From NCBI GenBank assembly GCA_002205965.3, contig NADL03000512.1, forward strand, positions 1,922,001-1,986,000: a DNA stretch of 64,000 bases, in the 5' to 3' direction. Positions 5,164-61,700 of this stretch are shown one piece after another (the first letter of the stretch is position 1; each line of letters begins with the position of its first letter). The notes beneath the pieces were generated by a model. It had not been told where the DNA came from. It ran no database searches and saw only the letters and a list, made by a program, of their open reading frames with translations. Source of the stretch: Kappaphycus alvarezii. Lineage: Eukaryota > Rhodophyta > Florideophyceae > Gigartinales > Solieriaceae. The translations under genes were made by a program, and so were the position numbers.

Positions 5164-6489
5164 TGATGTGTGCAAAATTCGCACACGACAAAAATCTAAA
5201 AGAGGACCAAAATTGTATACAGTGTCGGAATTTGGAAGATATTTTTACAGTTTCTGAATTTGCAAGATATTTTTAATTTGGATGAGTGTGGGAAAATCAT
5301 GGGCTGATTTTTAATTTTAAGACACGGTGTCACTAATAGATGGCATTACTGTACACGTCCAAGGTCGTCATACTTTTCGAAGACGTCGCAGTATTTAAAG
5401 TTTGAAATGGACGTCGTTGAGACAAACTTTCGCCATCAACTACCCCATCGGTTCACCCCTTTTTTTGGCCCTTAACATGAACAACCTCCGCACTTCCCTC
5501 ACCATCACCAAGCCATCCTGAGGCCGTCGTCCACTCAACGCTTTGGCCCTAATGGCATATGGTTCAACCGACTACGATGATTACTGTAGAAGGTTGGATG
5601 GGGAACGCGTTCGGGAGTGTGTCCGTCGTAACTGCTTCAAGCAGGCAGAAGAAGAACAGGAGGAGGAGGAGGGAGAAGAGGAGGACTGGGTGGAACCGTG
5701 GGAGCCACGAGTATGAAACGGTAGGGGGGCTCTCATAGAGAACGAAAGGAAGACTGAGGGAGTAATTGTGATCTCCGACTCTTTTGACGAAGATAAAGAG
5801 AGGAGAAAAGAGGAGAATGAGGGGGAAGGAGACATAGAAAGTGCTGGATTGGTGGGGAAGGGGCCGAAAAATATGGACCAGGTGACCCTGACTCTGAAAC
5901 TGGATAGGAGAGTCCTCAGTGGTCTAGATATTTCGGAAGAGGAAATGGAGAATTCTAAGCCGTTCACGGATATATGTGTGGACTGCCTTGGTGGTATGGA
6001 TATTTTGGGGGAACTGTTTGGCTCTGATATAGAGGACTAAGATATTAAGGAAAGAATCTAGATATTTATCGTGATAGTACCTACTGTTAGTCTTTCTCGT
6101 TCACACGATTCCATTTGATGCATTTTATGGTTCTTAGTATGTTTCTTTGAGACTTTGGGTTTAGCTAAAATGTCTATGTAAACTGAGTAAACTGCTTCCT
6201 CTTGTGGAGGTCAAGCAAGTTGGCAGAAAACTTCAAGTCAAGTCTCGAGTACTAGGAAGTTGAGAGTCAGCTTCAGACCCAAGAAATATTTTTCCCACGC
6301 TGGTCACAGAGCATCAGTGGTAGACCCTGGCACTTCCATACTTGCTTGTAGCTATCTCAGTTGTTTTCCTTATCCACTCATTTTTGTTCGTTCAATTATA
6401 CCACGGTAGCACTTTTGTTGCTTGCAACACCTCCTTCTTGAGGTAGTTGGTTCTGAGTATCTCTTCTCCCGAAGATTTGCCCCATATCA
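5164..6489 (+). repeat. Gypsy-1 3' LTR, about 1.3 kb
   Basis: It starts TGATGTGTGC and ends CCATATCA, giving TGAT/ATCA termini. Its first 200 bases and last 450 bases match, as reverse complement, the solo LTR at 7,513-8,230. The middle differs: about 650 bases here, with an ORF, against about 90 bases there. A TATA-like GTATTTAAAG lies near 5,390, a plausible U3 promoter. No target duplication can be tested because the 5' LTR is outside the window. Confidence 0.75.
5552..6040 (+). pseudogene. Acidic ORF inside the Gypsy-1 LTR, one in-frame stop
   Basis: The ATG at 5,552 opens a frame that runs to 6,040, interrupted only by TGA near 5,714. The protein has a short Tyr/Asp/Arg start (MAYGSTDYDDY), a long Glu run, a second Glu/Lys-rich part and a Leu/Asp-rich tail ending GELFGSDIED. 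No known domain is recognised. It lies after the TATA-like box, so an LTR promoter could have transcribed it. The solo LTR copy lacks this segment. It may be a captured sequence or an accessory ORF; low-complexity acidic composition makes a chance frame possible. Confidence 0.4.
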
Positions 6490-6746
6490 ATATTTCGGGC
6501 CTCAACAGACCACATCTTTCAAATATTGAAGCACCCAAACATTCCCACCCACAAATGCTTCGTGCCGTAGGGTCCCATCACAGGCAGGTTAGTGTAATTC
6601 TCCGTGGCCATAATAACCCCGCGCCATGAAGTCTGCCCGTAGGCGCCTTTGGGTGTTGTTTGGTGATATGCGGCTTTCACCAAGGCGGAAGATTGGAGCT
6701 TGCCGCCACTAGGTGGCGGGCGCGGGGAGTTCGGTACCACACGTAG

Positions 6747-7279
6747 TTAGTAGTTCAATATGAGCCTGTTTCTCAAGGGAACAGACGGAGATGAGTGAGA
6801 ATCCGACCGTAAGGCGTCAAATATTGCGAGCAAAGGGTATCTCATGGAGCGTTGCAAACCACGCTTTGGTAACTGGCATGCTCTTACACGAGGTAGCAGA
6901 TCACATATGATTGACGCCACCAAGTGATCGATCTCGTAGTCACGCCACACAGTTACACTGTGCAGGCAGATGAACTGTTGGAGTTCAGACTCGAGGTGCT
7001 TGACCTGTGCGTGTAACCCGATGAGGTCTTGTTCCGGTTCACAGAGTAGGGAGCGGACATAACTTTCTAGACCGAATTAGACCAGCTGCAAATAGAGGAA
7101 AGATTCTCCGGGCGGCTTTCGGTTCCGCGGGACGTGCGATCAAGCGGCCTCCGTCCTCTCAAAATAGTTGCGGGATGCCCCGGAAACCCCAAATACCAGT
7201 CACCTTCGTCCTCGCCTTCATCTCCGCAATTGTCTGGCAAGTTGAAAATCGGGATGGTAGCGACTGTACCAGATTGCAC
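6747..7279 (-). pseudogene. Possible decayed reading frame between Gypsy-1 and Copia-1
   Basis: This lies in the 0.9 kb between the two elements. On the minus strand an acidic stretch (7,279-7,067; GDEGEDEGDWYLGFPGHP) is followed after one frameshift near 7,075 by a helix-like part (LIGLHAQVKHLESELQQF) and a tail ending at 6,747. The heptad-like Leu spacing suggests a coiled coil, as in some gag or host proteins. I recognise no family. Stops upstream and the frameshift make it a fragment at best. The rest of 6,490-7,415 shows nothing else that I can support. Confidence 0.25.
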
Positions 7280-7415
7280 AATTTATCCGTTACAAAAGTT
7301 GCACATTGTACACATTGAAGCGAAAGGGGCCAGTGGAATGCTCTTTTCGAATTGGGTCGAACGTTTAAAAGTGTAGGAGCAACTCCCTGTTTTTAAAAAT
7401 ATTCAATTTACGTAT

Positions 7416-8380
7416 TGACAGATTTGTTCGACAGAAGTGTACGAATGGAAAAGTCCAGGACATAGGACTCCAGTAGAAGTAGTGATAATCATTGCTGTCC
7501 TGGAGAGGGATCTGATAGGGTACATAGTCTGGAAAAGAGATACCCAGAACCAATTACCCCAAGAGGAAGGTCTTGCAATCGACGAAATTGCTACCATACC
7601 ATAGTTAGACGAACAAAAAGAGGTGGGTAAGAACGAAAGTTAAGAGGCATACAAGAAAGTATAGACGGAGCAAAGTCTACCATTGATGCTCTGTGACCAG
7701 CACAAGAGAAATGGAACCTGAAGTTGACTCTCAACTTTCTACTACTCGGGACTTGGATTGAAGTTGTCTGCAAACTTGCTTAGCTCCCACAAGAGGAAGC
7801 AGTTTACTCAGCCTATATTAAATTTTGGCTACCATAAAGTCTCAAACAAACACATTAATAACCATAAAATACATTCAAGGGAATCGTGTAAATTAGAGAG
7901 AATATTTGAAGATATTTCTTCAAGGTAAATATCTAGGTGCTATACCCGTGCCCACCAGACATCGGCCAGGGGTGAGAATTAATGTGAAAAATATGTGAAA
8001 ATTATATAGACCTTTGAGAGTCACTCATGGTATCACTCAGGACCTGGACGTGTACTGAAATCTATTAATTACAGCTTTTCTTAAAATAAAAAACTAATCC
8101 ATAAATTTACCACACTCATCCAAATTAAAAATGTCTCGCAAATTCAGATACTGTAAAAATATCTTGTAAAATCCGATAATGTATCCGAATTTTGTCCTCC
8201 TCTAGATTTTCCCCGGGTGCATGCACATCATGCTCTCCTAGAGAGGTATCATTGAAATAATTATAAGTTTAGTGAAGATGAATATATCGCACTCTCGAGT
8301 GGTATAAGTAGTAGTGCAATGCAGGTCGTAAGGAAAAAAATAAAAAACAGTAAAATATCCACTTTAAAACATCCTCAACA
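7416..8380 (+). repeat. Copia-1 5' LTR, split by a solo LTR
   Basis: It begins TGACAGATTTG and ends CCTCAACA, just before the primer site. Removing the insertion at 7,513-8,230 leaves about 246 bases that align to the 3' LTR: GTGTACGAATGG, ACTCCAGTAGAAG, CCTGGAGAGGGAT, then AGTAGTAGTGCAATGCA. The two LTRs differ at many places, so the insertion of Copia-1 is old. Confidence 0.8.
7513..8230 (-). repeat. Solo LTR of the Gypsy-1 family inserted in the Copia-1 5' LTR
   Basis: Read on the minus strand it starts TGATGTGCATGC and ends ACCCTATCA, matching the ends of the LTR at 5,164-6,489. It is about 718 bases long and lacks the ORF-bearing middle. It contains a TATATAA box. The flanks 7,493-7,512 and 8,231-8,250 are near-identical (17 of 20). 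The 3' LTR of Copia-1 has this sequence only once, so the flank copies look like a duplication made at insertion. Confidence 0.8.
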
Positions 8381-38143: not shown

Positions 38144-39184
38144 AGTTGACCTTGCTGTATCTCTGGCTCAGGAAAGCACTACCGAAAGTAGTCAGGCCAA
38201 CTCCGGTGCTAATGGCTCAGACCCGGACTACTCTCCATCCGAGGACTCCGAATCGAGTGAGGACGACAAAATCGTCTATGTGTCCATGGACATTGCTTCG
38301 GACGCCGATTACGCCAAATCATTGCACGAAAGCCTTTGCACGAATGCAATCTGTCACGAGCTGCTCGTCGAGAATGAAGCTTCTCATACAGTGAACCCAC
38401 CTATCAAGGATATCAGCGTGGCCGAACGCCTAGCTTTGTACTCTCCTACTCGCCGTAAGATGATGCGCAAGCAACGAGGCAACGTCAAGAAGACGCTATT
38501 CGAGATCGAGGACAAGAATGGTATACTCAAACCTATCAAACATACAATCTATAAGGACAATGAGTTTCTTGGTGTGTGTCCAGACATTGGCCTTTCTACC
38601 TTGTGCTCTGGACTCACTAATTATCGTGCATATTGCTACCAGACCAAGCCACCCTTTCACCTCCGTGCATCAAGAAACGTTCTCAAGTTCGGTGGTGTAC
38701 GACACAAATCGATGGGAATTGCCACCATCCTCGTCCCTATTAACGAATCTTCATTCTTCCAGTACGACACTGATGTGTTGAAGGTTGATGTACCTATGCT
38801 TTTTGTTCCCCTCAAATGACGAAAAATGGTCCATATGTGAACAATGTCACAAGTGATATCGTTCATCACTATGCTGGTTGGACTATCCCCCTCACTCACC
38901 TCAACGGACCATTGTTTATACAATGGTATCATGCCACCATGTTCACTGAGACGGAACTGCAGAAGCTAAATCGGCAGTTTTTCCATCCCTCAGCTGGAAG
39001 ACTCTACGGTCTGCTCAAGCGTGCTCGACCTGAGGAAATGTCATCTGGAATCCGCAAGGTCATCAACAAGATATCTGATGCCTGCAAGACATACTCAGAG
39101 CTGAAACGCCGACCACTACGGCTCATTATTTCCATGCCGGACGAGAACATAGTCTTCAACCTAGTGCTATACATCGACCTTTAA
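38046..39184 (+). pseudogene. Copia-2 zinc knuckle, protease-like region and pre-integrase
   Basis: Just upstream in frame lies CDFCKSIMHFWRQC, a perfect CX2CX4HX4C knuckle, shared with the end of gag. An acidic linker follows, then a protease-like segment: FLGVCPDIGLSTLCSGL stands where the family has a D-T-G-A site, so the catalytic site is degraded. PILVPINESS-type strands and a DVPMLF strand follow. After a frameshift near 38,815 a pre-integrase part reads FFHPSAGRLYGLLKRARPEE and ends CKTYSELKRR, where the second Cys of CxxC is lost. Confidence 0.7.
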
Positions 39185-42489: not shown

Positions 42490-42493
42490 CTAG

Positions 42494-45302
42494 TGTCCAA
42501 AGGACAAGCAAATGTACTCATATGAGTACAGTAATGTACTCATATGAGTACAAATGATTGTTCAAAATTACTTAGATTTTTTTAATTAAAATTATACACT
42601 GGCACGCTGAATCCTTGAAAACTAACTTCCCCTAACTACAAAAGAAGTAGTTTCATCCTAGTTCACAACAACCGCTGTGGCCTAATGGGCTTCAAGTAAA
42701 GAATGAACAAAGAAATCGTGAGTCCGACTCGCTGCGCTCCACAGGAGGGCAAAAACTTCCTTCAGGAAGGTCGACATTTCTGCGACAGCTGTTACCTCAG
42801 TTTGCCTCAGCGCGCCCACTTGAACATGAGCAGAGAGGTTAATTCACTGATCACTCATAAAGGGGAATAACGCCATAGGTACGTATGCTAATTCCGCAAG
42901 TCGAACGACGCCAATCAGAAATGTAGGCGGCTATAGTCAACGACTCAATTTTTTTTCATTTTTACTCATTCAGCCTACATAAAATGTAAGCGTAGACAAG
43001 TAAACATCACTATAGAGTAGTCTAAAGCATCTTCCAATTATGACAGAAGTGGACATGGCGTAAGTGATTTTGAAAGCAGTTACGTCCTGTCTCTGAATGG
43101 ATTATCCAAACCTCTTTGTTCAGTTTCAGGCACTCAGAGCAGAGAAATTTGGACTTCTTGTCAGATTTACAAATTTTGCATCTGCTTTGAAACGCTGCTT
43201 TCGTTGGGGCCCCGTTGGCTCCTTTGCGCCTTTTCACTGTGGGCAACAGGTGGATTCCAGTACCGCAGACCAATGAGGGAATAGAATCATCTGGAACTTC
43301 AATGTCAGATCTGCGGAGACCAATAGCATCAAATGAATTGTCAATGAATTGCTCTGCAAGTTTTGCATAAAAATCTTTTTGGGACATGCAATTTCTTGCA
43401 CCCATCAAACCCTTGTATAGCAGCCTTGAGTCAACGATGCAAATTGCAAGCGAAGATGTATTAACCCTCAGTGACCAATTATTGACTTCGAATTTCTTCT
43501 CCAATCCAAAGTCATCCTGTCTGCATCTGTTATGCCTGTCAATCGGGAGCACGTTTGATAATATGTGCTGACAACCGCTGGAACTGAAATTTACATTTCA
43601 ACAAGCACCGTTTCATTACCAGAAGATCTCCAACGAGATCTTCTGATAGGCTCTGACGGAAGTGTTGTACCGGAAGTACTGACAAAGTATCTTCTGTCTC
43701 TATCCATCCACAGAACGACCATCATAGAAGGGTGGCTTTCCGTCCTGGGACTTACCATACAGATATGATGTCCGCGCCTGAAGAGTTTCAGCCCTGGCAA
43801 AAATGACATAGAAAACTGCCTTGTCGCATTCTTGACGACACCTGTAAACCTCAGTCCATATTCGAAAAGCGCATTTGCTGTGGCCACAGAAGCAAATGCA
43901 GAGTCTGCACAGACAAGTCGATTTGAATGAAACCAAGGCTCTGTAAGGCGAAGAACAATAGCAGTAACATGAGGGAAATCTGACTCGTAACGCCGACTAC
44001 TGCTGTCAGATGCTGACAAAACAATCTCAAAATTCAATACAATTCCACTGACACCGCAGCATGCAGTCTTGATCTCACATCCATTTTCAGGCTTACGGTC
44101 CATGGCGACATAGTGCGGTAGTCCCTCTGACATCCAGTCACCCCCCATTCCGTACCAGCGCGACATGCTTTCATCCACGCAAATATTCTCCGATGGCGAA
44201 AAACTTGACCTCCTATGCCGTTTTATGGCATCCACGAATCCGCTGACCAAAGACCATCTTCTGTCAGTGCTTTCAGTTTCAGTGTAGCGGCTGAATGTAA
44301 TACATGAGACCAGTGCTTCGAAACGGTTCCTCGAAATTATTTTTCCAAAAGCCGCCAATGGAATGTATTTGGATGCAGACTGCGTACTCCAAAGTGACCT
44401 TCTGCTTGTAAACTCGAATCTGCATAGCAATATGAGAATTCCAAAAAAACTTTAGAATTTCACCAGCTGATGTACGCATGTGCCCACCATTAGCGAGTTT
44501 TTGGTTTGTAAGTTCGGTAATTTTAGAAGGGTGTTCGACGGGAAACATGCAAAGGAAAAAATCATACGGGGTCTTCTCATACTCGGTATGACCTTGTATG
44601 TACGTGTTCCTTGCTGGACCAATTACCTTCCATGGCCGACATGCCTTTGATCCATTCAACGGTAATAATACCTCCTGATTGGTCCAAATTTTTCCATGCA
44701 CTTCTTCGCAAACCCCTCCTACTCCGGCCATCCCATTGGCTTCTTCTCGAGGATCTTCAACAGAAGGTTGACGATTCGGTAGGTCGACCTCAGCAGCAGT
44801 TGTCTCCATTTCATTGGGCGTTGCTTCGTCACCTTCAGATGCTTCTTCTGGCTTGATGTTGACGAGTTTCAAGCTGACGCGCTTTGTCCTGTCCTGAATG
44901 GACCAGTCTGCGGTGACCGAAGTCTGACGTCTTCCGGTAGATGTGTCAACTTCGATGTTGACCACGGTTCCGTTGACGCGCTTACTTCTCCAAAGGGAAC
45001 CGAATAGTCGCTTACACTCAGCCGCTGACGTGACAAGGGTTGCGCGAGTGTTAACAAGGTTTCCGGGCTGTTGACGGGGGTCATTTGGATTCGTCATTTT
45101 TGGTTAAATTTTGCGATGTTGACAAACTTGTTGTGTGTTCGAATGAACTGTTGAGGAGTAAACTCCGAAGTTTTGCACGGTTGACTGCCTAAGGGTGCTA
45201 TTAGATATGGTGAAAAGCTAATGGTGTCATTCTGTAAGTTTTTTATATAAAATCTAGCCGTTAGAAATATGGACTCATATGAGTACAATTGTCCTCTGGA
45301 CA
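42494..45302 (-). mobile_element. piggyBac-like DNA transposon with CTAG target duplications
   Basis: The element is 2,809 bases with near-perfect terminal inverted repeats (TGTCCAAAGGACAA left, TGTCCAGAGGACAA as reverse complement of the right end, 13 of 14). Both sides are flanked by CTAG (42,490-42,493 and 45,303-45,306). Behind each TIR lies an 18 base palindrome centred on CATATG: two copies on the left (42,513-42,530 and 42,535-42,552), one on the right (45,270-45,287, one mismatch). It encodes one piggyBac-type transposase on the minus strand. Classic piggyBac uses TTAA, so CTAG is unusual. Confidence 0.88.
43022..45097 (-). pseudogene. piggyBac-type DDE transposase, frameshifted
   Basis: The N-terminal frame (45,097 to about 44,445) is acidic and ends in the DDE_Tnp_1_7 start (KTPYDFFLCMFPVEHPSKIT). 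At an A7 run (44,443-44,449, plus strand) the frame must shift to reach GILILLCRFEFTSRRSLW and ISRNRFEALVSCITFS. The catalytic Asp positions are in ICVDESMSRWYG, VCADSAFASV and VLWMDRDRRYFVST. A stop at 43,591 and another shift precede the C-terminal part (LPIDRHNRCRQDDFGLEKKF) and a Cys-rich end (CKICKS...CSECLK...HLRHVHFCH), as in piggyBac RING-like fingers. All three catalytic Asp survive, so inactivation is recent or partly a sequencing matter. Confidence 0.88.
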
Positions 45303-45306
45303 CTAG

Positions 45307-45660
45307 TAGGCTAAACAACGTAAGATCGAGGGCCACCCGCGAAATGGGCGGTGCCGCTGCGATCGCTCACCGCAACGAGGTGACTGACCTGGAGCGAAAA
45401 CTTTCGCGGCGTCTGCCACCGCCCTTCGAGTTCCAACCGCTGGCGTTTGATTCTCTGGGTCACCTTCTCCTGCCACCTTACTCTTCATAGAGGGTCTTCT
45501 GCCGCGCATCGCGGAGAAGTTCAGCACCCCTGTCGGAGTGATCCGCACGCGCGTGTTGAGCCGCATCAGTTGCACTATCTGGTCGTCAGTTGCGCAAGCT
45601 ATTTCTTCGCGCATGTCGCTGCACGTGGACGACGTGGATAATCCTGTTAGCTCTTAGCTA
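45307..45660 (+). pseudogene. 3' fragment of the non-LTR A/B family, copy 1
   Basis: The frame gives GGAAAIAHRNEVTDLERKLS, then FEFQPLAFDSLG. After a shift near 45,465 it gives FIEGLLPRIAEKFST, IRTRVLSRISCTIWSS and LHVDDVDNPVSS before a stop. This is the nuclease-like C-terminal end of elements A and B (compare FRPLAFDSPGAPSP in A). Only the last 350 bases are present. It starts right at the CTAG flank of the piggyBac element. Confidence 0.8.
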
Positions 45661-45924: not shown

Positions 45925-46395
45925 GGCTTACCAGACCCACCTATCGCATGCGACGTCGCCGTTGCGTCACCGTTCAAGCAGACCTCAATCACCAAAGCCA
46001 CGCAAGTCGCCGGTGGGGCTGCCGCCCTCACTCTCCAACGCAAGGTCCAGGACCTACAGCACAAGCTGTCAAGGCGCCTGGTCCCCCCCTTCTTGCCCTC
46101 CCGCGACACAATTCCGATTCCAGCCTCTGGTTTTCGACTCCCTCGGTGCCCCTTCTCCGGATACCGCATTCTTCATCGAAGTGTTTGCACCACGTGTAGC
46201 CAGGAAATGCCACACCTCGGACGCTACGATTCGCACACGCATCTACCAGCGTATCAGTTGCACTTTGTGGTCGTCGGTGGCTATGGCCATCATATCGCGG
46301 GCCCCACTGCACGTGTCCGATGTGGTCCATCCAGTTAGCTCTTAACTGAATAGTCGGTCAGTCGGTGTACACTCAAGATAAGTAATGAGTAAAGA
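45925..46395 (+). pseudogene. 3' fragment of the non-LTR A/B family, copy 2, with 3' UTR
   Basis: The coding part reads KQTSITKATQVAGGAAALTL, LQHKLSRRLVPP, FRFQPLVFDSLGAPSP, FIEVFAPRVARKCHTSD and then SCTLWSSVAMAIISRAPLHV, with shifts between. The 3' UTR follows (GCTCTTAACTGAATAGTCGG) and ends AAGTAATGAGTAAAGAT. This matches element B almost base for base, so the two are close relatives. A LINE follows tail-to-tail on the minus strand. Confidence 0.82.
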
Positions 46396-46833
46396 TTTTC
46401 TCTTTCTTGGGGTTAGATATAGTAGGCAGATGCAATGTAATGGCCGCTAACGATGAGAATATAGTACAATGATGGCGTCCCGTAGTTGTTTGAGTTGGTT
46501 ACCGGTGAGGGCGTTGTCCGGAGGAGTTCCATGGTCCTGGTAGCGGTTCTGTGGGGCGTTGTCGCAGACACTGGGTGATGTGGGAACCAGTGTAGGAACC
46601 AGCGTAAGGAGAGGCGACGAGTGTGCCCCTTGAGGATGGGAGAGGTGAGAAAGGATGGGAATGTTCCGACTTGTGTTGTGGCGGGTGACTGTCGGGGTGA
46701 GAAGAGACGTTTACGGCGGCATGGGGGGCTGCTACGGGTATTCCAGACGGAGATGTAGAGGTGGGATGAGTGCGCCTGGGATGGGGAGGTGAGGGTTTTG
46801 TGGAGTACCGAGTTGGCTCCATAGGTTGTGATG

Positions 46834-58759: not shown

Positions 58760-61700
58760 CCGATTGACCGACTATTCAGTTTAGAGCTAACTGATGGACC
58801 ACATCGGTCACGTGCAGTGGGGCCCGCGATATGATGGCCATAGCCACCGACGACCACAAAGTGCAACTGATACGCTAGTGTCTATTGGACCGTTGTCCTC
58901 ATATGAGGACAACTTTTAGCCCTTTTTTTTCAATACAATTTTTTTTACCGCAGCGCATTTCTTGTCCCTCCGCATTAGTTCATGAGTGCAGATGGCCGAT
59001 CGAAACAAACTTTTCGAGATTGTTGACCTTGGTGAAGGCTAGAGCAGTTTTCCCTCACCAGCTTCCGCTCTTCGCAAGAAGTTGTGAAAACGGCTTCATT
59101 TTGGAAGGAAAAATAGTTCGTATTATCGTGGGGGGTTTTAGAAACGAGGGGCATGTACAGTAAAAATTACTGTACTGTAACTTAACAAAAAAACCTTTTT
59201 TGCAGTAAAATTTGAGGCTTCCAAAACATTTACTGTTCCAAAATGTAACGGAAACTGTCCTCATATGAGGACAAAGTGTGCCTCATATGAGGACAGAGCA
59301 TTGTCGTATAGACACTAGTAGATGCGCGTGCGCATCGTAGCGTCCGGGGTGTGGCATTTCGTGGCTACACGTGGCACAAACTCTTCAATAAGTAATGCGG
59401 TGTCCGGAGAAGGGGCACCGAGGGTGTCGAAAACCAGAGGCTGGAATCGGAAACCTGGGTCGTGGGCGGGCAGAGAGGGGGGGACCAGGCGCCTTGACAG
59501 CTTGTGCTGTAGGTCCTGGAGCTTGCGATGGTGCATGAGGACGGCAGCCCCACCGGCGACTTGCGTCGCTTTGGTGATGGAGGTCTGCTTGAACGGTGAC
59601 GTGATGGCGACGTCATATGCAATGGGTGGGTCATATAGGTCAGCTTCCGTGTCACGGGGGGATGCACGAGAAGAATGCCAGCGGGGCTGTAGTCCGTCCC
59701 GGGGAGGAGATTCTCAGCTTCGAACTCGTAGTCAAGGCCGGCGGCGCGGAACACGTGCCACGCGAACACATTGCGAACGGATTTGCGGCGGTGAATGCGC
59801 CCAAATTCTGAGACGCAGCGGTCAGCGACATGGTCACCGTGGAAATCCATGTCTTGCTGGCAGTGGTGGCATTTCAATGGCACCGAGTCTGAGTAGACTG
59901 GGAGACCGAGGTGCCTGCGCAGCATGATGCACCAGTGTGCTGATGACACCTTTGTGGCGGTGGTGGGGTGGGCCCATAGGAACGCCGCCGCACCGGTGTT
60001 ACGGAAGGCCAAGCCTCGAATCCGGCGACGTGTGGACGTGTCGGAGTGGCAGCTAGGATGAGGCACTCTCTTCCATAGGTCATCCTCCCAAAACTCCTTT
60101 GCCCTGGCTTCTTGCTGCGCCAGATTTAGGTGAGATTGCAGGTTGACGGGCATGGTGGCAAGGGAGGCGGGTTCAAAGGGGCCTAGGTCGGTGGCAAACG
60201 GGTCATCTTGGATCAGTCGGACGAAATCGCGGAGGGGCCGGCGTGCCTGATTGACGAGGAAGTGTCGGTCGCCCCGTGCCTGTTTCCCAAGGACGGCGAC
60301 GGAGCGGGGTGTTGCATAGTGTGCGGTGCGTAAGCGGAAGGGGGCAGCGTCAAGAATGCTGGCGGCGACAGCCGCGTGCAGCGCAGGGCCAATCCTTGAG
60401 AACGCGTGCCCCCCAAGGCGGAGGGGGAGACAAGCTTGTTCCCAGGCGTCGTCGGTGAGGGGGACCTTATGCAGCGTACCGTAAGCGGCTCGCTGCAGGG
60501 AGTCGAACTCCCTTGCAGGCTCCGCAGCATGCTGAGGGTCAGCAAGCCGAAACGCGTGAAGCACCTGGCATGCGGATGCACATAAGCGATGCATGTGGAA
60601 GCGGGCCCTGGGGTCTCGGACCCCTTCCAGCAGCGCCAGGGTGCGACGGCACCCCTCTATCTTTCTGCGTAAGAATGTTTTCGTGAAAGCAGCGCTACCC
60701 AACGGGGCCCCGAGGAGCTCGAAACCGTCGCCGGCGCATTCTGCGAGCGGGAACTCGGCCAGGAAAGCAGCGCGGTCGGCTGGCGAAGTGTGCGGCCAGG
60801 AGATGCGTGTCTTGCGAGGGTTAATAAACAGACCGTAAGACGGACCGTAGAGCGCGAGGGACCGTAGTGCTCGCCGTAGGCCCTCGAGTGACCCAATGAT
60901 TGTACCGTCGTCGGCGTACCACTGATTTAGGATGATGCCCTCCTCGTCGGCGACCCGCCTGATGAGCGGTTGTATCGTCAACGAGAACAACAGCATACTC
61001 GCAGGGTCCCCTTGCTGGGTTTCCTGGGCGCTAGAAAGCATCGTCCGCTCCCGGTTTGGGACAATTAGCGTTGGTCGGGATCGACCGTACACCATGTTTG
61101 CGAATCGGGCAAGTGAGGGGGCACGGGATGGCAGCATGTCGAGCATTGCTTGCCGATCGACGCAGTTGAAAGCGTTTCGGGCATCAATGAGGACGGTGGC
61201 AACGTTTGGATCCGACGACACCCTTCGCAGCATCGTGCGAACATCATGGACGATCGCATCCATCCCTGCCTTGATGCCATTGGCAGTTTGGAAGGGGGCC
61301 AAAAATGCACGGGAGTCATCAATAGCCGGTGGGAGCAGCGTCTTCGTGACCAGGCGCCGGAGGACAGAGCCGACCCCAATGGGACGGATCTTCCCAGGCC
61401 TAGGCTGCAGGGGGAGGAGGGTTGCTGCAGAGAGCAGGGGAAGCACCGAATGGGGAGGTCCCCTTTGCTATGCGATTGACCAGCTTCGTCAGAACGCCGA
61501 TGCCAGTGACACCGGCCTCGGGGCTAAGAGCGGTGTTAACAAGCAGGTGGAACCACCTCGAGGGAGTCCGGTCCGGACCCCGGTGGTATCCCGCGGGATG
61601 CGACGCGCGGACTGCGCAACAGCGGCTTCCGTGAGTTGCGGAGGAGGTGGGAGGCTTTCCTCGGGAAGCGGGGCGATGGGCTGTGGCGGTGACGGGTGAA

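Follow-up and report, generated by a model that had tools for sequence, protein, structure and literature searches.

The window analysed here is a stretch of 64,000 nucleotides from the red alga Kappaphycus alvarezii (GenBank assembly GCA_002205965.3, contig NADL03000512.1, positions 1,922,001 to 1,986,000), and coordinates without a contig name refer to it. An element of 2809 bp lies at 42494-45302 and is abutted at each end by CTAG (left, 42490-42493; right, 45303-45306), which we read as a target-site duplication from the sequence and from the flanks of other copies given below. The ends form a pair of terminal inverted repeats (TIRs), identical at 13 of their first 14 bases: TGTCCAAAGGACAA at 42494-42507 on the plus strand, next to where the transposase gene has its 3' end, and TGTCCAGAGGACAA at 45289-45302 when read on the minus strand. 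Just inside the left end are two subterminal palindromes, GTACTCATATGAGTAC (42514-42529 and 42536-42551), perhaps transposase-binding sites, and the other end carries a subterminal palindrome GGACTCATATGAGTAC at 45271-45286. piggyBac is one of the main transposons of genome engineering, and TTAA is regarded as its nearly fixed target. The original prediction was of a piggyBac-like transposon that duplicates CTAG instead, and the TIRs and flanking CTAGs that it reported were verified.

The transposase gene of this copy runs on the minus strand and is split over three overlapping or adjacent frames. Fragment 1 (44279-45097) is the N-terminal part, frame-shifted relative to fragment 2 (43591-44430), which carries the DDE_Tnp_1_7 domain and the first two catalytic aspartates (VDES and ADSAF). 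Fragment 3 (43022-43552) carries the third aspartate (IDRHN) and a Cys/His-rich C-terminal domain. Fragment 2 matches the Pfam family PF13843 with an E-value of 1.3e-27, in agreement with the predicted minus-strand transposase, and fragments 1 and 3, searched singly against Pfam, gave no match. The claim that all three catalytic aspartates survive holds for the residues themselves, since those aligned with piggyBac D268, D346 and D447 are kept in fragments 2 and 3, and does not extend to the gene, which is frame-broken although the aspartates persist.

Trinucleotide frequencies predict 137 occurrences of CTAG in the window, where 133 are found, and a search across the window for CTAG-flanked inverted repeats (12 bases, one mismatch) found none besides this element. 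A 436-bp MITE belonging to a second family lies at 58879-59314 between CTAGs at 58875-58878 and 59315-59318; its ends are TGTCTAT and it contains the palindromes GTCCTCATATGAGGAC. The window also has a TTAA-flanked stretch of 2.85 kb at 5273-8128, with exact inverted ends of at least 12 bp (TTTGGATGAGTG...) and three listed open reading frames (minimum 80 aa) of only 80-128 aa. One copy of the main family elsewhere, L036, is inserted in a repeat related to this stretch.

The element without its CTAGs was used as query against the host genome assembly (336 Mb, 884 contigs), giving at least 95 matches with 40 of 539 candidates scored; the main family has at least 40 copies in the 336-Mb genome. 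Flanks were scanned at 40 loci, i.e. 39 fetched loci and the window's own (L001), using a pattern that covered the ends only, and L015, a truncated stretch within L048, was omitted from the scan. Both ends were recognised at 34 of the 40 loci, 32 of which read CTAG/CTAG. When L024 and L035, with flanks duplicating those of L019 and L034, are dropped, the near-universal CTAG/CTAG flanks are found in 30 of 32 distinct insertions. The two deviants are degraded copies, L044 (GAAG/CTAG) and L046 (GCAG/TTAG), and each of the six loci outside the both-ends count (L016, L027, L037, L045, L047 and L048) has CTAG at one end at least. TTAA was sought on either side of the 34 two-ended copies and found in none. 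Positions beyond the CTAG, out to 14 bases, carry less than 0.3 bit each and are near random.

For the second family, a first look at the genome gave 1769 MITE candidates, of which 40 were scored, at 93-100% identity. CTAG/CTAG was found at 34 of these 40 loci and in 31 of 36 distinct insertions, counts with a mild bias as this query, unlike that of the main family, contained the CTAGs. The deviants read CTGG/CTAG (L064 and L092), ATAG/CTAG (L072 and its near-copy L081), CTAG/ACAG (L086) and CTAG/CTAT (L095). The TIRs of both CTAG families start with TGTC, whereas those of the piggyBac superfamily begin with CCY.

Empty sites were searched for with junctions in which the two flanks of a copy were joined by one CTAG. 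Eight of 32 junctions were run, and the best 40 of 2170 candidates were scored. The joined flanks of L012 correspond to contig C186, positions 38622-38841, in 220 of 220 bases (100%), with a single CTAG at the junction, the position of which was checked. This unoccupied place on C186, which may be allelic or a duplicate, has one CTAG, which makes CTAG the target and probably also the duplication. Two more places match the L012 junction at 94% and 93% with lengths within 2 bases, and the L011 junction has one place of equal length at 91%. With 205 of the 220 bases of the L017 junction given, 27 places were found at 83-85%; 26 of them differ from the query in length by at most 2 bases, and the remaining one is 4 bases shorter. 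Among the best 40 of 2170 candidates, the only place spanning the L013 junction is 4 bases shorter, and no place spans the junctions of L001, L009, L010 or L014. A guess at an empty allele from the collinearity of contigs C447 and C631 missed, turning up instead an 84% copy with CTAG/CCAG flanks (L057). Comparison of two allele-like contigs gave one match of 9749 bases at 99.7% without a large insertion, that is, no polymorphic copy there.

Paralogous sites with one 4-base unit were found for L031, L030, L043, L036 and L044 and for two MITEs, the one in the window and that of L082. The unit is CTAG for L031 (92.8% over 291 bp, with CTAA in two others), CTAG, TTAG and ATAG for L030 (three more have a one-base gap), CTAG in several and TTAC in one for L043, TTGA, TTGG and TCAG for L036, CTAG in a 70% paralogue for L044, and CTAG and CTAA for the L082 MITE. 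The window itself holds a MITE-free paralogue of its MITE site at 46112-46396 on the minus strand (285 bp, 93%), which has a single CTGG where the MITE has two CTAGs, and a second one at 45431-45654 (65%) that reads GCTC. We take the non-CTAG units at many of these sites as divergence of old repeats. Paralogue matches of L018 and L033 were excluded, the match being the start of their own element. L013, L019 and the near-copy L024 of the latter have CTAGCTAG on the left flank. As the paralogues of L013 and L019 are one 4-base unit shorter, an additional, separate event is indicated at these sites, and CTAGCTAG might be a candidate excision footprint, or slippage.

CTAG could instead be the outermost part of the TIR (CTAGTGTCC...) of an element that makes no target duplication. 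The palindromic CTAG is so constant that the ends alone give no distinction between this and a duplicated target. Such an element is difficult to reconcile with exactly one CTAG in the 220 identical bases of the L012 empty site, or with the presence of the same CTAG at two families with different ends. At L051 (contig C673), moreover, a main copy and a MITE lie side by side with one CTAG in common, as expected if one element entered the duplicated target of the other. CTAG as TIR only was rejected on the L012 empty site, and we regard it as extremely improbable.

A 2-nt stagger with duplication of TA, where an element GTGTCC...GGACAC picks C-TA-G sites, would leave the same filled and empty sites at every perfect CTAG, and would fit the deviants L072 and L095 as well. 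However, constancy is no lower at the outer bases than at the inner ones (C at -4 in 30/32 and G at +4 in 32/32 distinct insertions), so that an extra 4-base preference would be needed, and the stagger of piggyBac is 4 nt according to passages of PMC7351741. The deviants CTGG and ACAG are consistent with simple base changes, and CTAG stands in a paralogue (69%) of the L095 site. A duplication of TA only is considered improbable, and the whole CTAG is the probable duplicated target.

An intact transposase frame was sought in the 34 two-ended main copies and found in none. Full frames of 687 aa are present in L016 and L027, each of which has one end unrecognised (the query match starts at base 117 in L016 and at base 20 in L027). 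This is what would be seen if the ends were passengers of another CTAG-specific transposase and were not moved by the PF13843 protein. On the other hand, the 34 main copies, all of 2735-2874 bp, have ends and transposase remnants together, and in the second family an element at C677:164132-167002 (CTAGs included) combines both ends, CTAG/CTAG flanks and an intact 691-aa transposase. We find it very improbable that the ends are passengers; they are probably moved by the PF13843 transposase. The C677 transposase is 52% identical to that of L027, and the C677 element is likely the autonomous partner of the MITE. On contig C622 a second-family 5' end with CTAG is present, and the fetched stretch yielded no 3' end.

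A survey of the genome with PF13843 gave at least 119 matches, with 116 of 951 candidates scored. In a close relative, P0002, positions 2-349 of the 349 of the profile were covered. When a profile of 28 clade sequences was compared with PDB using HMMER, piggyBat was found with an E-value of 1.9e-17 and piggyBac with 1.2e-10. For hhalign the clade was represented by 56 rows, namely P0001 together with 55 hits from a list of 120 (out of 307), and the other side by 31 piggyBac relatives (from 120 listed of 1187). The two were aligned over 445 columns with a probability of 99.4% and an E-value of 3.6e-21, with the three catalytic aspartates aligned; D355, D445 and D567 of P0002 fall on D268, D346 and D447 of piggyBac, and the triad is conserved in 56, 56 and 54 of the 56 clade rows. 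Cys and His columns of at least 90% are found at the C-terminus of the 56-row alignment, and this region gave a weak match (E=0.063) to 6zop, a chain of 84 residues from a DDE_Tnp_1_7 protein that we take to be PiggyMac. A putative C-terminal cysteine-rich domain is thus present, as in the piggyBac superfamily.

The AlphaFold2 model of P0002 has a pLDDT of 83.3 and is low in the omega loop. With this model Foldseek placed piggyBat (E=4.9e-19) and piggyBac (1.2e-16) on top, followed by Tn5; the match is partial, with TM-scores of 0.40-0.43 by query and 0.60-0.62 by target and an rmsd of 14-15. The predicted overall fold is of the piggyBac type. Ahead of the transposase core, residues 51-127 of P0002 form a well-predicted small domain, mostly beta, for which Tudor and chromobarrel were among weak, non-significant Foldseek matches (E around 0.3 and above).

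The evolutionary position was examined in a tree of 42 proteins, where 26 clade members, including both families, form a group of their own against 15 piggyBac relatives, with support of 100/100. As had been predicted, a piggyBac-like lineage using CTAG is supported by the flanks, the single-CTAG empty site and the tree together, and the findings named beforehand as refuting (flanks of TTAA or of random bases, a CTAG that is part of the TIR) did not turn up. The second family has the same target; the two families in which the CTAG target is seen belong to a single genome and are near each other in the tree. Relatives (120 listed of 307) are uncharacterised 'Transposase IS4' proteins of 35-67% identity from metagenomes and the diatom Fragilaria crotonensis. 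Viral and genome contigs searched with a single protein gave no relatives, and an alignment-based search gave one locus in each (L049 and L050, respectively), for neither of which could ends be read with nine palindromic 4-bp flanks. L049 is the IMG/VR contig IMGVR_UViG_3300049043_000356, 33 kb long and filed as viral, with a transposase relative that is 39% identical.

A third, very diverged PF13843 family, on a very long branch in the tree, was found at L102 (885-3334, contig C681) and as ends on contig C744 (L107 and L108). It has the TIR CCCCTCGTCTGTA and the piggyBac-like motif YNFNMGGVD, and its ends, checked in two copies for TTAA and CTAG, have neither. Other ends adjacent to CTAG were noticed in the left flank of L020 and the right flank of L042 (TGTCCAATTGACC... 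and TGTCTATTTTACCC...); their sequences suggest further CTAG families.

Taken with the boundaries, flanks and empty sites, the homology of the transposase makes it very probable that the element is a cut-and-paste transposon with a piggyBac-homologous transposase and with CTAG as insertion target and duplication. Like piggyBac (Trichoplusia ni) and piggyBat, it has the DDE_Tnp_1_7 domain, a DDD triad, a similar predicted fold and a Cys/His-rich C-terminal region, as well as a single gene, short TIRs and a 4-base palindromic target with a central TA. It differs from both in the target, CTAG where theirs is TTAA, and in the columns that contact it. The element is not a canonical TTAA piggyBac; it is homologous to piggyBac and would work like it, with a target choice that appears to have shifted naturally.

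In the piggyBac complexes, as described in passages of PMC7351741, the TTAA bases are unpaired, the second T is held by V414, L416 and Y439, and N440 makes contact with the third base. In the strand-transfer complex a hydrogen bond joins the first T to the last A, and according to the authors no other first base could satisfy it. At the columns of V414, L416, Y439 and N440 the clade has R in 55/56, F in 55/56, Y in 53/56 and Y in 51/56 rows, where R for V414 is based on aligning piggyBat by HMMER; in hhalign V414 and Y415 are separated by a gap of 7 columns. The 31 piggyBac relatives have V in at least 90%, L in the majority at 416, Y in all and N in 31/31, and piggyBat has V, L, Y and N. The combination R/F/Y/Y is present in nearly all 56 rows and is thus common to our element and the metagenome and Fragilaria crotonensis proteins. 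Furthermore, the omega loop, which organises the target in piggyBac, has 8 additional residues in the clade and one residue fewer slightly later (hhalign against the piggyBac relatives).

By analogy with piggyBac, the enzyme would make a 4-nt stagger, and excision would proceed through a 4-nt CTAG hairpin followed by rejoining of CTAG overhangs. As CTAG is palindromic, the position of the cut is taken from homology. The central TA of the target would be kept, and the outer T-A would give way to C-G, for which a similar pairing is possible. The pocket round the target bases would be rebuilt by changes of V414 to R, L416 to F and N440 to Y.

It had been assumed in the original prediction that piggyBac is strict for TTAA. 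TTAA is indeed preferred, but strictness does not hold throughout, as PMC3849761 gives about 10% TTAT or ATAA duplications for Pokey, a piggyBac element of Daphnia. The central TA is kept there as here, which suggests that piggyBac-type enzymes need it. Unlike in Pokey, which prefers TTAA, CTAG is the rule here and none of the 34 two-ended copies has TTAA flanks. No CTAG-targeting piggyBac was found in titles and the openings of abstracts; subscription papers and Repbase were outside this scope, and an earlier report is possible. The CTAG passage in PMC5857283 appears, by its legend, to concern Helitrons, and that in PMC5704228 concerns a Helitron.

The entire sampled protist and algal PF13843 clade (56 rows) may be a CTAG-specific sister group of piggyBac, its target reading rewired by the longer omega loop and by a few pocket residues (R, F and Y in place of V414, L416 and N440), with outer C-G replacing T-A; we put this forward tentatively and hold it to be possible rather than probable. 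If true, swapping pocket residues would switch the target specificity. A natural lineage with another fixed 4-base target, in which a second family has an intact transposase between its ends and MITEs in large number, offers a handle on the residues that read the target. It could also be used to probe whether target choice and seamless excision, for which a coupling has been proposed on the basis of piggyBac structures (PMC7351741), stay coupled once the site changes.
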